Shown here one piece after another: positions 58,315 through 64,000 of a stretch of DNA of 64,000 nucleotides. The notes below the pieces were generated by a model. The model was not told the DNA's origin, did not search any database, and was given only the letters and a program-made list of their open reading frames with translations. How positions within the stretch are numbered: position 1 is the stretch's first letter; each line of letters opens with the position of its first letter. A program made the position numbers and the translations under genes. The DNA comes from Rosistilla ulvae (GTDB lineage: Bacteria; Planctomycetota; Planctomycetia; Pirellulales; Pirellulaceae): the NCBI RefSeq assembly GCF_007741475.1, contig NZ_CP036261.1, positions 3,411,798 to 3,475,797 on the forward strand. The letters are read 5' to 3'.

Positions 58315-58512
58315 ATGAAACATTACGCGCATACGCTTCCAGGCAATACCGACAAGGAAAACTGGGAACCGCTGGCTGAACACGAACAACGTGTAGTGCG
58401 CGTTGTTTTCAGGCGTCTCAGGAGTAGCAGGAATGTTTTGGGGGCACAGTCGCAATGGTCGTGGCCATGGTGTGCCAGAAGCGTTGGCGGATCATATTCG
58501 CCGCGTCGATGA
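58315..58512 (+). pseudogene. 5' remnant of a second cas3 gene
   Basis: The frame starts MKHYAHTLPGNTDKENWEPL and continues AEHEQRVVRVV, which is the standard start of a Cas3 HD domain (a His near YAH and the HxxxV helix). After about 30 residues the similarity ends near 58,405 and the frame reads out-of-frame sequence of the intact cas3 until it stops. The intact cas3 starts at 58,433 with its own, different HD start. So the operon carries two cas3 beginnings in tandem. Either a cas3 was replaced by recombination or a partial duplication occurred. Confidence 0.75.
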
Positions 58513-60820
58513 CTTCGCCAGGAAGTTTTCCGAGCCGTTGGATCTGTCAGCGGCTGCTAGTATTTCGGCGTTGATGCATGATCTTGGCAAGTACTCCGAT
58601 CGGTTCAACAACTATGTGCAGGGCCGGTCGGGCTGTTCCTCGCCAGATCACTGGTCAGCGGGAGCGAGGCTCGTAATCTCTGCGTTAGGGGGACACAATG
58701 AGCAGCGTCTTCATCTGTTGGACGCGATTCGCTTGGCCATCGAGTCGCATCACAGTCAGCTTTCGACGCTCTCGTACCCACGCGAATCTGCACGCAGGTT
58801 GGACGAATATTTTGCAAGTAAATCGCGGCTGAAATGCGATGAGTTCGCAATCTTGATGGATCGTTGGCGCAAAGATGGGTTTCAGTTGCCGGGCCTCGGA
58901 GATGAAAGGCTTGCGTCGGCTGACGCGGCCGCGATGCTGGAGTCGCGGTTGCTGTACTCCTGTTTGGTTGATGCGGATTTCCTTGCGACTGAAGGACACT
59001 TCAGCGGTGACGTCGCCATTCCATATCAACCTCGTAGCCTTGCTCCAGAGTTTGATTTCGGTGCAGCTGCGGATCACCTTGAATCCATCATGTCGAGCCT
59101 GCCGCAGTCGCAACCCGAGATGCAATGGGTGCGTGATCATGTGGGCGTTCAGTGCCGAGAGCGAGCGTTGGACGCGCCGGGCCTATTTACGCTGACGGCG
59201 CCGACCGGTTCAGGAAAAACACTGGCCATGCTTCTGTTCGCATTTCGGCATGCCCAAAAGCATGGGCACCGTCGCATTGTGTTCGTGATGCCGTTTCTCA
59301 CTATCGTCAGCCAAACGGCTCAAGTCATTCATTCCGCTCTTTCCTCGCTCCCCGGTTTTGATCCGTCTTGGGTGTTGGAGGATCACAGTCTCGCTGGCCG
59401 CAATGTCGATGGTTCAGCTGATTCAGAGAATCCTGAGGAGATGGAACTCGTTCGAGAGCAACGACTCGAAGCCGACAATTGGGACGCACCTATCATACTG
59501 ACTTCGTCGGTTAAGTGCTTGGAGTCATTGCATGCGAACCGCCCTTCCGTCTGTCGAAAATTGCACAGGCTTGCCAAGAGCGTTTTGATTTTTGACGAAG
59601 TGCAAACGCTTCCACCTAAGCTGGCGTCTCTCACGCTGGCGACCTTAACACACTTGTCGCAGCGTTTTGGATCCACCGTGCTGTTTGCGACCGCGACGCA
59701 GCCCGCATTTGAGATGCTCGAATCGGAGGATCGTCCTCCGCTACCTAATCTGCGTTCGCCCAGCCAGCTAAGTGGCAATCCGTGGGCACCCACGGAAATT
59801 CTTCCTGAACATGACAGGCTGTTCCAAGCTACGGCTGGGCGAGTGAAGGTGAAGTGGTGGCTGGATGAAGAGTTGCCACTGGGCGAAGTCGCATCGCAGA
59901 TTGCTAAGTCAGATCGGTCGAGCCTGGCGATCGTAAACCTAAAGCGCCATGCCACGCAGCTATTCCACGAGATCGGGGAACATCGTTGCGAGGTCTATCA
60001 TTTGTCGACTTCGATGTGTGCCGAGCATCGAGATCAAACGCTTGAAGTGGTGAGAAACCGGTTGGCTGAAGAGAGGCCCGTGAAGTTGGTCAGTACGCAA
60101 TGCATCGAGGCTGGCGTTGATTTCCCGAAGCGTTCGTTCGAGGGCGGGTGGCGCAGCATGGCCCCACTTCCGTCGATTGCTCAAGCGGCAGGAAGGATCA
60201 ATAGGTCGTTTGAATACGCAGCGGCCTCCGTGTTGAACGTGTTTCGGCCGAGTGTGGAGGGCGCCCACTATCCACCCGGATATGGAGCTGGCATTGCTGC
60301 GCTGCAGACGCTTCTGACTAGCCTCAGGGAGGAAGGCATCCATCCCGACGAAACCGAGCTCATCTCTTCGCCGGAGCTAATGCAACGATACTATGCGATC
60401 CTTTATGGGCTGACCGATGAGGCGGCGATGACAGACAAGCTTTTGGCCGCAGTGGAAGGGCTCGACTTCGAGGGTGTTCGCAGTGAATACCGGCTTATCG
60501 GTTGCGAACAGCGCAACATCTTAGTGGCGTACAACAAAGCGTCGCAGCGGCACCTGCTTGATTGGCACGCGCGGCCGAACCAGCAGCGAGGTTGGACGCG
60601 GGACTGGATGCGAGCAGCCCGGCCGTACACCGTGACCGTCTATGAGTTTGAATTCGAGAAACTCGCTGCTGCAGGGTGTCTGTTTCCGATCCCGTTTGGC
60701 GCCGAGGAACATCTGGTCCCGGAGGAGTGCAGGTGGTGGGCTCTTCCAGAAGACGCAGGCTACTACGACCCCAACGTCGGGCTAGAGGTCCCACAGGAAG
60801 ATGGACTGCTGGAAGTGTGA
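58433..60820 (+). CDS. cas3: CRISPR-associated helicase-nuclease Cas3 (type I-C)
   Basis: About 795 residues. Cas3 is recruited by Cascade to a target and degrades it with its HD nuclease and SF2 helicase. The HD domain shows His residues at HIRRVDD, the HD pair in SALMHDLGKYSDRF, DHWSAGARL and ESHHSQL. The helicase has Walker A TAPTGSGKTLAM near residue 257, the Walker B box IFDEVQTLPPK near 387, LFATATQPAF, and motif VI QAAGRINRS near 584. The C-terminus (EECRWWALPEDAGYYDPNVG) matches I-C proteins. AGGAG stands eight bases before the ATG. The start is separate from the remnant upstream. Confidence 0.95.
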   Translation: MFWGHSRNGRGHGVPEALADHIRRVDDFARKFSEPLDLSAAASISALMHDLGKYSDRFNNYVQGRSGCSSPDHWSAGARLVISALGGHNEQRLHLLDAIRLAIESHHSQLSTLSYPRESARRLDEYFASKSRLKCDEFAILMDRWRKDGFQLPGLGDERLASADAAAMLESRLLYSCLVDADFLATEGHFSGDVAIPYQPRSLAPEFDFGAAADHLESIMSSLPQSQPEMQWVRDHVGVQCRERALDAPGLFTLTAPTGSGKTLAMLLFAFRHAQKHGHRRIVFVMPFLTIVSQTAQVIHSALSSLPGFDPSWVLEDHSLAGRNVDGSADSENPEEMELVREQRLEADNWDAPIILTSSVKCLESLHANRPSVCRKLHRLAKSVLIFDEVQTLPPKLASLTLATLTHLSQRFGSTVLFATATQPAFEMLESEDRPPLPNLRSPSQLSGNPWAPTEILPEHDRLFQATAGRVKVKWWLDEELPLGEVASQIAKSDRSSLAIVNLKRHATQLFHEIGEHRCEVYHLSTSMCAEHRDQTLEVVRNRLAEERPVKLVSTQCIEAGVDFPKRSFEGGWRSMAPLPSIAQAAGRINRSFEYAAASVLNVFRPSVEGAHYPPGYGAGIAALQTLLTSLREEGIHPDETELISSPELMQRYYAILYGLTDEAAMTDKLLAAVEGLDFEGVRSEYRLIGCEQRNILVAYNKASQRHLLDWHARPNQQRGWTRDWMRAARPYTVTVYEFEFEKLAAAGCLFPIPFGAEEHLVPEECRWWALPEDAGYYDPNVGLEVPQEDGLLEV

Positions 60821-61029: not shown

Positions 61030-61103
61030 CTAACGTGTCAATTCGCTCGCTACGATCGACACCACTCGATGAGCTGTTTCTTAAACCAATCCCAGGGGGC
61101 GTC

Positions 61104-61823
61104 ATGATGCCACAAATCCATGTTGTGGAATTCTATGGAGACTTTGGCTGCTTCAGCAGACCGGAGGCCTCGGTCGAACGATTTTCGTATGCCGTACCAC
61201 CTCACAGCGCTGCGAGAAATCTGATGGATTCAATCTACTTTCACCCGCAGTTCCGTTGGGTCGTCCACAAGGCCGAACTTCTGATGGAGCCTCAGTGGGT
61301 TGCGTTGCGACGCAACGAAGTCAAGGAGAAGATAAACCTAAACGCCGTCGGGCGATTCATCGACGGGGAAGGCGTTGAACCGATCCTGGCCGATGGGGAC
61401 AAAGCGTCGACAGGGTCCGATGAAAAGGGGCGTACCCAGCGACAGACGATGGCATTGCGGAACCCTCGGTACCGTTTACACGCCAGCATTGAGCCTTGGC
61501 CCGAGTATCGCAAGATTCAGAAGAAGTACAACGACATTTTTCAACGACGATTGAAGAGCGGGCAGTGTTTTCAACAGCCCTATTTCGGGCAACGAGAGTT
61601 TGTCGCCTACTTTTGTCAGCCAACCGATAAGAAGCCCTTTCCTATGAATCAGGAGCTGGGCTTGATGGTCTATGACACATTTGACCAGAGTCGACCAGGA
61701 TCAAATGAGAGCAGGCCCTCGATCTCTCTGTTTCGAGCGGAGTTGGTTGATGGAGTTCTCGACTATCCCGCTTACGACTCGGAAGCTGTCTTGAGACCTC
61801 ATCGATCGACGGAGGCGAGCTGA
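61104..61823 (+). CDS. cas5c: CRISPR-associated protein Cas5c (type I-C crRNA-processing Cas5)
   Basis: About 239 residues from the ATG at 61,104 (ATG 61,107 is equally good). In type I-C, Cas5 both cuts the pre-crRNA and binds the 5' handle. The family stretch GCFSRPEASVERFSYAVPPH followed by SAARNLMDSIYFHPQFRW, and later ALRRNEVKEKINL and LRNPRYRLHA, is visible. GGGGGCG precedes the start. An upstream in-frame GTG at 61,035 has no ribosome-binding site. The gene overlaps the next as ATGA, so the two are translationally coupled. It lies 283 bp after cas3, a larger gap than usual. Confidence 0.93.
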   Translation: MMPQIHVVEFYGDFGCFSRPEASVERFSYAVPPHSAARNLMDSIYFHPQFRWVVHKAELLMEPQWVALRRNEVKEKINLNAVGRFIDGEGVEPILADGDKASTGSDEKGRTQRQTMALRNPRYRLHASIEPWPEYRKIQKKYNDIFQRRLKSGQCFQQPYFGQREFVAYFCQPTDKKPFPMNQELGLMVYDTFDQSRPGSNESRPSISLFRAELVDGVLDYPAYDSEAVLRPHRSTEAS

Positions 61824-64000
61824 TGTTTCACCTCATCAAGGAGTACGCCGAGAGGCATGATATTGATGCGCGACCCGGGTTTTCGGCCGTCAATTTGCAC
61901 TTCCTGGTCGTCATTACTTCGCGGGGTTCCTTTGCATCCATCAGTCGGTTAGGCGAAGGATCACGTGGCCAACGGGTGCCTGGTTGTCCCCAATTCAATC
62001 TGCCGGAATTGAAAGCAATGGGATCCGGAGCGCGACACTTCCTGGTCGACTCGCTCGATGTCATAGCGTTGTTGACCAATAAGGAAGGGGAGCAGCCTGA
62101 CGGCAAGCAGAGGGCCAAGCATGACGGGTTTATCAATTTGCTGCGCGATGCCGGACAGACGAATCCTTCCATTGCGCTAGTCGTCTCAGCTCTTGCTGGA
62201 TCCTTAACCGAAATTCAGGCGGAACTGCGGACGCTTCGCGCCAAGCCGACCGATAAGGCGACATTTGCAATAGAGGACGGTAACAACACCAAGTGGCTTG
62301 TTCAAGATCCGTCTTGGCATTCCTGGTATCGCGATCTGCGCGCAGCGATTACCGCCACACGTATGGCAAAAGGCAGTAAGGGGGCAGCTGATGGTCCCGT
62401 GAAAATGCGTTGCTTGCTGACCGGCGATCTCGTGCTACCGGCTCCAACTCACGACAAAATCACGGGGCTGGCCGACGTTGGAGGGGACACGAAGGGCGAT
62501 ATTCTCGCATCCTTCAAACAGCAGTCCTTTCAGCACTTTGGCCTTAAAAAGGCAGCGAATTCTGCGATGAGTCCCGAAGCGGTGTCGCTGTACACGACCA
62601 CACTAGATCGGCTGCTGACCAGCGCAGTCAAGATTGCAGATCGCAAGATCGTGTATTGGTACCAAGACGAGCACTCAGAAATGATGCCCGATGTCGATCC
62701 GCTCGCCTATCTGTTCACGGGGCAAACGTCCAACGAGGAACGCGATCAAAACGAAGGTGAAGCCTCAGAAGAATTGGCCGAGCCAAGCCAAGGGCAGAGA
62801 AGACAGGCGGAGGCGTCTGCAAAAAGTGTCTTGGAACGGATCAGGGTTGGTGGCGATGGCCAGTATCTGAATTCGGGTCGGTACGTCGCCTTGTCGATTT
62901 CTGCCAATAAGCCGCGTGTCGTCATTCGAGATGTACGCGTGGGAAGGTTCGAACAACTGTGTGAATCGACGGAGCAATGGGCCAACGACCTCCGGATCTG
63001 CAAACTCAATGGAGCTCCGCTTGCAATGCCCAGCCTGAATCGGTTGGTGAACTGCACGCTACGTGAGCGACAACGGGGTGAAGACTTCGACAAATGGATA
63101 GCGCCTGCATCCCCTGCCTACACCTCGCTTTGGAACGCGGCGATGTCGACTTCTCGCCAAAACATTAGCGAAACGATTGCGGTCCAGGCCTACCAGCGAT
63201 TGCGATTAGCGATGCTAAACGGAGAAGTCGCCGATGCACTCGACGACAAAAGCAAAACGATGAAACTGCGGCGATCGGCCTACTATGCCCGAATTGCTTT
63301 ACTCAAACTTTATCTAACGCGTAGAGAGGATCAGACGATGGAAGTGGCTTTGAACGAGGAGTCTAATTCGAGCGCCTACCACGCCGGACGCATGTTGGCC
63401 GTATTCCAACACGTGCAGACCCTGAGTACTGGCGAACCGAATGCCAGTTTTTTGGATCGATATTACTCGGCCGCTAGCACCACACCTTACCAAGTGTTGC
63501 CCCGGATTTGGAGAATCGCATTAAACCATTTGAAGCGGATTCAACCGCGCACACTTCGAGAAGAGCTTACGGACTTGCTATCGGATATCCATAGCCAAAT
63601 CCCAAGAGAAATCGACGTTTGCAAACCATTGGATTTAGCGGACCAATTCCAGTTCCAACTGGGCTTCTTTCAGCAACAACCTGAACTTCCAACAAAGTTC
63701 CACCTCATCCGCCGCGTACCAACGAAAAAGGGGTACCTAGTGCGGTCAAAATCGGAAGCCACTATTGACAATCTGCTTCACGCTTTCGCTGACGCACATA
63801 GCGACTTGGGGATCAACATCGCATATGAACCGTCGCATGTTGAAGTCCGAGGTGAGCGCATTCGCCGCGGTGGCAGGAACGAATCACCAATCAGACCAGA
63901 CTGGGTCATCCAGACCAACAAGAGCGACCGGAAAATAGTTCTGGAGCACTTCGGAATGCGAGATCGCCCTAACTACTCCCTGAGGATGGAACGCAAAATC
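61823..64000 (+). CDS. cas8c: Cas8c (Csd1) continuing into a PD-(D/E)XK-like nuclease domain; runs off the window
   Basis: An open frame of 726 codons with no stop to the edge. Residues 1 to about 619 are Cas8c, the large Cascade subunit of type I-C: the start FHLIKEYAERHDIDARPGFS, the CPQFNLPELKAMGSGARHFL segment, WNAAMSTSRQNISE-like helices, and the closing QFQLGFFQQQ, which matches the usual GYYHQRQ end. From about 624 it continues as FHLIRRVPTKKGYLVRSKSE, an acidic E645, P692-D693 and LEHFGM (E708-H709), with YSLRMERK. This layout fits the helicase-tail nuclease domain. Length exceeds normal Cas8c by over 100 residues. cas7 has not been reached. Confidence 0.8.
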   Translation, partial: MFHLIKEYAERHDIDARPGFSAVNLHFLVVITSRGSFASISRLGEGSRGQRVPGCPQFNLPELKAMGSGARHFLVDSLDVIALLTNKEGEQPDGKQRAKHDGFINLLRDAGQTNPSIALVVSALAGSLTEIQAELRTLRAKPTDKATFAIEDGNNTKWLVQDPSWHSWYRDLRAAITATRMAKGSKGAADGPVKMRCLLTGDLVLPAPTHDKITGLADVGGDTKGDILASFKQQSFQHFGLKKAANSAMSPEAVSLYTTTLDRLLTSAVKIADRKIVYWYQDEHSEMMPDVDPLAYLFTGQTSNEERDQNEGEASEELAEPSQGQRRQAEASAKSVLERIRVGGDGQYLNSGRYVALSISANKPRVVIRDVRVGRFEQLCESTEQWANDLRICKLNGAPLAMPSLNRLVNCTLRERQRGEDFDKWIAPASPAYTSLWNAAMSTSRQNISETIAVQAYQRLRLAMLNGEVADALDDKSKTMKLRRSAYYARIALLKLYLTRREDQTMEVALNEESNSSAYHAGRMLAVFQHVQTLSTGEPNASFLDRYYSAASTTPYQVLPRIWRIALNHLKRIQPRTLREELTDLLSDIHSQIPREIDVCKPLDLADQFQFQLGFFQQQPELPTKFHLIRRVPTKKGYLVRSKSEATIDNLLHAFADAHSDLGINIAYEPSHVEVRGERIRRGGRNESPIRPDWVIQTNKSDRKIVLEHFGMRDRPNYSLRMERKI

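Follow-up and report, generated by a model that had tools for sequence, protein, structure and literature searches.

A planctomycete type I-C CRISPR-Cas locus in which cas8c ends in a probable Cas11c-nuclease module

The window analysed here, a stretch of 64,000 nucleotides, corresponds to bases 3,411,798-3,475,797 of a 7,475,804-base single-contig genome, the host of which is a planctomycete from the family of the relatives titled Pirellulaceae and Rhodopirellula. Towards the 3′ end of the window, a cas3 gene with intact HD nuclease and helicase motifs (HDLGK, APTGSGKT and DEVQ are all present) is followed by cas5c and by a cas8c frame that opens at 61,823 and is still open at the window edge (Table 1). 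Reading beyond position 64,000, a check proposed in the initial annotation of this DNA, brought the frame to its stop at 64,162 and located cas7, cas4, cas1 and cas2 downstream by Pfam, NCBIfam and PADLOC profiles, followed by a CRISPR array. The array has a 33-base repeat in 33 exact copies, with one 103-base spacing (L002:8839-8941) that encloses a single inexact repeat copy. No exact match to its spacers was found inside the window, and comparison of the array with phages returned a single record, at 65% identity. The order cas3-cas5c-cas8c-cas7-cas4-cas1-cas2 with an array is the type I-C layout, and the locus is a complete type I-C CRISPR-Cas system whose cas8c ends in a Cas11c-nuclease module.

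Table 1. Features of the cas8c-nuclease region, in window positions
Feature	Position	Strand	Details
cas3 (805 aa)	58403..60820	+	PADLOC Cas3c E 2.6e-159; NCBIfam cas3_HD E 5.4e-20, over cut-off
cas5c	61035..61823	+	TIGR01876 E 2.5e-30, over cut-off; PADLOC Cas5c E 1e-39
cas8c-nuclease fusion gene	61823..64000, on to stop 64,160-64,162 (L002:4158-4160)	+	779 aa; PF09709
Predicted internal Cas11c start	63324..63340	+	GAGAGGAT, then ATG of residue 506 at 63,338; Shine-Dalgarno-like, -6.4 kcal/mol
Cas11c small-subunit domain (residues 506-619)	63338..63679	+	Aligns with solved Cas11 chains 8g9s_H and 7kha_K; alignment A1
Probable PD-(D/E)XK-type nuclease domain	63698..64000, last residue ends 64,159	+	About residues 626-779

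Residues 6-625 of the fusion correspond to Cas8c (NCBIfam), and Pfam Cas_Csd1 (PF09709) matched residues 15-620 at E 2.7e-72 with 244.7 bits against a cut-off of 27. TIGR01863 gave 203.3 bits, below its cut-off of 218.65, indicating that the window protein is a divergent member of Cas8c/Csd1. The motifs QFQLGFFQQQ (610-619), VRSKSE (640-645), P692-D693 and E708-H709 all lie where the initial annotation had placed them. The tail, which had been given as about 100 residues, is about 150 aa long, an underestimate that arose because the window cuts the domain.

When the last 169 residues were searched alone, they matched the C-terminal end of the PADLOC profile PDC-S68 at E 1.9e-15. The match was limited to about the last 110 of some 1,200 profile positions, and the window fusion is not itself a whole ATPase/helicase of ~1,200 aa of the PDC-S68 kind. 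The same profile matched all 14 tails of alignment A2. Pfam PDDEXK_7 reached E 0.14 on the window tail, below cut-off; no Pfam family exceeded its cut-off on this tail or on the 14 A2 tails, VRR_NUC was absent from the Pfam matches of the same tails up to E 1, and NCBIfam produced no match on the window tail. The key residues of the domain are E645, P692-D693, E708 and a conserved lysine, K725, all of which are among the 12 invariant columns of A2, a degree of conservation beyond chance. With viral tails added (alignment A5, 12 rows), P692 and K725 were nearly invariant (at least 90%) and the three acidic residues remained invariant. The E708-H-F motif has no lysine two residues on and K725 would have to stand in, such that the acidic residues and the lysine of a PD-(D/E)XK site are present with the lysine displaced from the ExK position. 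The A2 profile also gave a weak match (E 0.13) to T7 endonuclease I (2pfj). On this sequence evidence, the tail is a probable PD-(D/E)XK nuclease domain akin to the ends of PDC-S68 helicases. Four small cousins in which the proline of the PD motif is not kept (L038, L039, L094 and L095) were excluded from A2; these are open frames of 215-328 aa that end in a nuclease cousin carrying VRSRAE and E-[YF]-W-G, and L038 had no Pfam match at E <=0.01.

Tails of this kind also close large ATPases or helicases encoded elsewhere in the phylum and the order, by two Rhizobium plasmids and by one phage-collection record, and they occur in viral contigs as well. A search of 392 phylum genomes with the tail matched nine at E <=0.01, with L036, L037 and L040 being spurious by sequence, while plasmid and phage searches matched two records and one record, respectively, which are large proteins where readable. 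Single-sequence tail scans of genome contigs and viral contigs found no relative, and among 60 relatives the tail search matched one, the window alone. In two genomes of the order, the nuclease domain ends a 691-aa frame (L091:3170-5242 and L092:1643-3715), which in L091 has Pfam DEAD and Helicase_C matches and looks RecQ-like; at L097:1-1923, the domain precedes an FtsK/SpoIIIE-type ATPase. In a nuclease-domain tree of 26 rows, divergence was too high to separate one origin from several.

The homologous domain of L066 was modelled (12 sequences) with a pLDDT of 90.8 and a pTM of 0.85, and the order of elements in the model (helix, strands, helix, strand) is that of the alpha-beta-beta-beta-alpha-beta core. 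Its best PDB matches were Bax1 (E 2.1e-3), an R2 retrotransposon protein and DrdV, followed at E >0.1 by Vsr, TnsA and Card1; none of the 458 fold matches reached E 0.001, and TM-scores were about 0.4-0.5. Bax1, the R2 protein, DrdV, Vsr and TnsA presumably all have PD-(D/E)XK folds. The model of the full Cas11c-nuclease was weak (pLDDT 67.7), too weak to place the domain on Cascade. Together with the profile matches and the conserved catalytic-type residues, the confident L066 model, its nuclease-type (weak) PDB matches and a helicase that carries the same tail (L034, with UvrD_C_2 and AAA matches) support the original proposal that Cas8c continues in frame into a PD-(D/E)XK-like domain. Bax1 is described as the partner nuclease of the XPB helicase, active at repair bubbles (PMC7672443). 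A bubble-like substrate would fit the structure-specific relatives Bax1 and endonuclease I, to which the matches are weak.

The nuclease lies directly after the part of Cas8c that corresponds to the small subunit. In O'Brien 2020 (PMC7684278), type I-C Cascade is described as having seven Cas7, one Cas8c, one Cas5c and two Cas11c subunits, with Cas11c produced from a ribosome-binding site within cas8c and the two copies lining the belly of the complex where the non-target strand probably runs. A start codon preceded by a Shine-Dalgarno sequence of -5 kcal/mol or lower, a threshold of our choosing, was found near the shared Cas11c column in 55 of 61 distinct Cas8c frames, or in 59 when all 66 frames were counted, some of which are one gene fetched twice, with a mean control rate of 10%. 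All three fused genes have such a start, at residue 506 in the window, residue 510 in G468 (-8.7 kcal/mol) and residue 468 in G663 (-5.9 kcal/mol). Since the fused genes keep this start, they should make Cas11c-nuclease as well as Cas8c-nuclease, a prediction from sequence that draws on few independent lineages. Four ordinary Cas8c genes missed the threshold, and the two distinct Cas8c sequences that occur beside a stand-alone Cas11c-nuclease gene (below) ranked last of the 61; the cas8c genes of G620 and G623 have a GTG (-8.4 kcal/mol) about 25 codons downstream of the usual site. The genus with the stand-alone gene thus appears to have lost the usual internal start, again from few independent lineages.

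The module recurs in two layouts. Cas8c-nuclease fusions like that of the window (G000) were found in G468, a Pirellulaceae metagenome assembly, and in G663, so that the search for the same fusion in related genomes, also proposed at the outset, was positive. In G614 (titled Rhodopirellula baltica BR-MGV), G623 (Rhodopirellula sp. SM50) and G620, of the same genus, an ordinary Cas8c is accompanied by a separate Cas11c-nuclease gene of 276-277 aa, which shares 10 bases with the end of cas7. Because the fused genes retain the internal start and the unit is a separate gene in three relatives, Cas11c-nuclease is the better name for it. The cas3 gene lies beside all six modules, identified by profile in the window and by eye in the five others, including G623. 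Around the G663 fusion, which is 728 aa long and belongs to another family, cas3, cas5, cas7, cas4, cas1, cas2 and repeats were recognized by eye. In G620 (L056:4945-5733) and G623 (L057:7717-8409), the Cas11c-nuclease gene is separated from cas4 by an additional open reading frame of 230-262 aa, which looks kinase-like by eye; the L056 copy had no Pfam match at E <=0.01, and no frame of at least 150 aa was listed at this site in G614.

The module is rare among Cas8c genes. Within the family, Cas8c was matched in 28 of 241 genomes, five of which carry the nuclease module; none was found on the 22 Cas8c ends read among the remaining 23, G500 being a fragment. Across the order, the Cas11c-nuclease profile (A1) matched 57 of 396 genomes, with three matches (window, G614 and G663) spanning both parts without a stop. 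In the phylum, the whole fusion protein was matched in 40 of 392 genomes, and no nuclease was found on the other Cas8c C-terminal ends in the 35 of these that were read, comprising 28 of 29 loci (the 29th lies at a contig end) and seven more. Two phylum Cas8c genes run 62 and 98 residues past the end of the match with sequence unlike the nuclease, and 12 family genes and these last seven phylum genes end 0-30 residues past it with no nuclease hit, compared to about 155 residues past Cas8c in the window protein. The scan of named genomes yielded four loci, three fusions and one ordinary Cas8c. A viral scan with A1 found no match, and all 13 plasmid records found with the stand-alone protein align to query residues 5-120, the Cas11 domain, only. 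G001 and G002, from the genus of the window, had no Cas8c match.

The G468 operon was compared with that of G024, which has no tail and in which cas7 comes next after cas8c. Cas3 (72% identity), Cas5 (84%), Cas7 (91%), Cas4 (65%), Cas1 (84%) and Cas2 (81%) are shared, and Cas8c is 77% identical over residues 1-387 and 26-38% identical from about codon 388. In the Cas8c tree, G468 stands beside G024 (SH-aLRT 98), whereas in a tree of the Cas11 part only, G468 groups with the window and the stand-alone modules (96/92), a grouping based on few columns and with long branches for G468 and G663. The simplest reading of these sequences is an in-frame exchange in G468 of the 3′ half of cas8c for one ending in Cas11c-nuclease. 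In the Cas11-only tree, G663 fell outside the group, and one clade of five was not rejected (AU p 0.41); in a 58-row Cas8c tree, which includes G663 as L072 without a fusion label, one clade of window and G468 was likewise not rejected (AU p 0.207). G663, on its long branch, may represent a second origin.

Several known systems resemble this arrangement in part. The closest published case found is in type I-E, where Cas11 is fused to a VRR-NUC nuclease; Altae-Tran 2023 (PMC10910872) mentions it in one sentence, and also mentions an incomplete type I-C system with fused Cas8 and Cas5. Both cases place a nuclease of the PD-(D/E)XK superfamily on the Cascade small subunit. The window differs in being type I-C, in carrying a domain of the helicase-tail (PDC-S68) type that Pfam VRR_NUC did not match, and in having the nuclease on Cas8c and probably also on an internally translated Cas11c. 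In the Cas8-HNH (type I-F1) and Cas5-HNH (type I-E) Cascades (PMC10910872, PMC11459484, PMC11480323), a nuclease is also built into a Cascade subunit and can substitute for Cas3, which those systems lack; the window fusion, in contrast, had no Pfam match to an HNH domain, and its locus pairs a PD-(D/E)XK domain with a retained cas3 that has its HD motif. Ordinary type I-C resembles the window in that Cas8c ends in a Cas11c-like part and has an internal start, but no nuclease follows Cas11c (PMC7684278). The PDC-S68 candidates of PADLOC, which are large ATPases/helicases, share the nuclease domain but have no Cas domains, with the nuclease ending a profile of ~1,200 positions. Among the literature matches listed, which were open-licence papers and no preprints, none described type I-C with a nuclease attached to Cas8c or Cas11c. 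We regard the arrangement as a nuclease-bearing Cascade that differs from the known ones in subtype, in nuclease family and in occurring in two gene layouts.

Taken together, these observations make it somewhat probable that the Cas11c-nuclease cassette equips type I-C Cascade with a nuclease at the R-loop in a system that retains Cas3, with cleavage as the presumed activity. One cas8c-nuclease gene would yield full-length Cas8c-nuclease and Cas11c-nuclease, and a single Cascade with the D. vulgaris composition of one Cas8c and two Cas11c would then array as many as three nuclease domains along the non-target strand. Upon target binding and R-loop formation, the domains on Cas8c and both Cas11c would be held along the displaced strand, where they could nick or cut it, or the junction between double- and single-stranded DNA, resulting in cleavage by Cascade itself. 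Since cas3 adjoins all six modules, the nuclease would act in addition to Cas3, and its cleavage might add to that of Cas3 or supply the nick through which Cas3 enters. A bolder proposal, which we regard as possible but doubtful, is that of a transferable cassette providing up to three branched-DNA nucleases at intervals along the displaced strand, target cutting without Cas3 and resistance to blocks on Cas3, either spliced onto Cas8c or encoded separately after silencing of the Cas11c start.

An active nuclease could have a main job other than interference, either trimming or freeing DNA fragments close to Cascade for Cas1-Cas2-Cas4 in primed adaptation or making an R-loop nick that just loads Cas3. 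The presence of cas3 beside every module means that a second destroyer is not strictly needed, and adaptation genes follow in the loci read; however, the domain sits on the interference complex and not on the adaptation proteins, and no link to spacer capture was found, so we regard this as unlikely.

The domain could also be a catalytically dead PD-(D/E)XK fold whose role is limited to binding DNA and stabilizing the R-loop, a function also attributed to the Cas11c surface. Dead domains of this class exist elsewhere, and the lysine is out of its classical ExK place. A dead fold is nevertheless improbable given that none of E645, P692-D693, E708 and K725 varies across the 14 A2 tails, whether fused or not, and that the three acidic residues persist in the 12 rows of A5. 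The nuclease parts of G623 and G620, in addition, differ at 10 codons with two amino-acid changes (dN/dS 0.07); against G614, synonymous sites were saturated.

If the internal Cas11c start were unused, the nuclease would be present on full-length Cas8c only, giving one nuclease at the Cas8c end of Cascade. The Shine-Dalgarno sequence in the window, at -6.4 kcal/mol, is of moderate strength and is surpassed within the gene by that of a GTG at residue 640 (-7.9 kcal/mol); in G468, that of an ATG at residue 222 (-9.3 kcal/mol) likewise surpasses the one at the Cas11c start. We nonetheless consider this quite improbable, as a start with a Shine-Dalgarno sequence lies near the shared column in each of the three fused genes and the small-subunit form is a gene of its own in three relatives.

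A deletion or assembly join that fused cas8c to a helicase end and removed cas7, cas4, cas1 and cas2, the alternative offered in the initial annotation, agrees with the tail belonging to a helicase-tail family but is refuted by the complete operon and array that follow in a single-contig genome, the unbroken frame with no deletion, the recurrence of the architecture in other assemblies, and the lack of any second PDC-S68 match in this genome at E <=0.001.

Type I systems are thought to require Cas3 for cutting. The Cas11c-nuclease arrangement places a different nuclease family on a small subunit present in more than one copy, in a subtype that is both common and compact and with Cas3 retained, and the G468 and G024 pair, with similar operons with and without the cassette, together with the Rhodopirellula operons, makes the role of the cassette directly testable. 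Should the proposed cutting prove true, these planctomycetes would possess a multi-nuclease Cascade of natural origin, which might counter anti-Cas3 inhibitors and could serve as a compact scaffold in genome tools.
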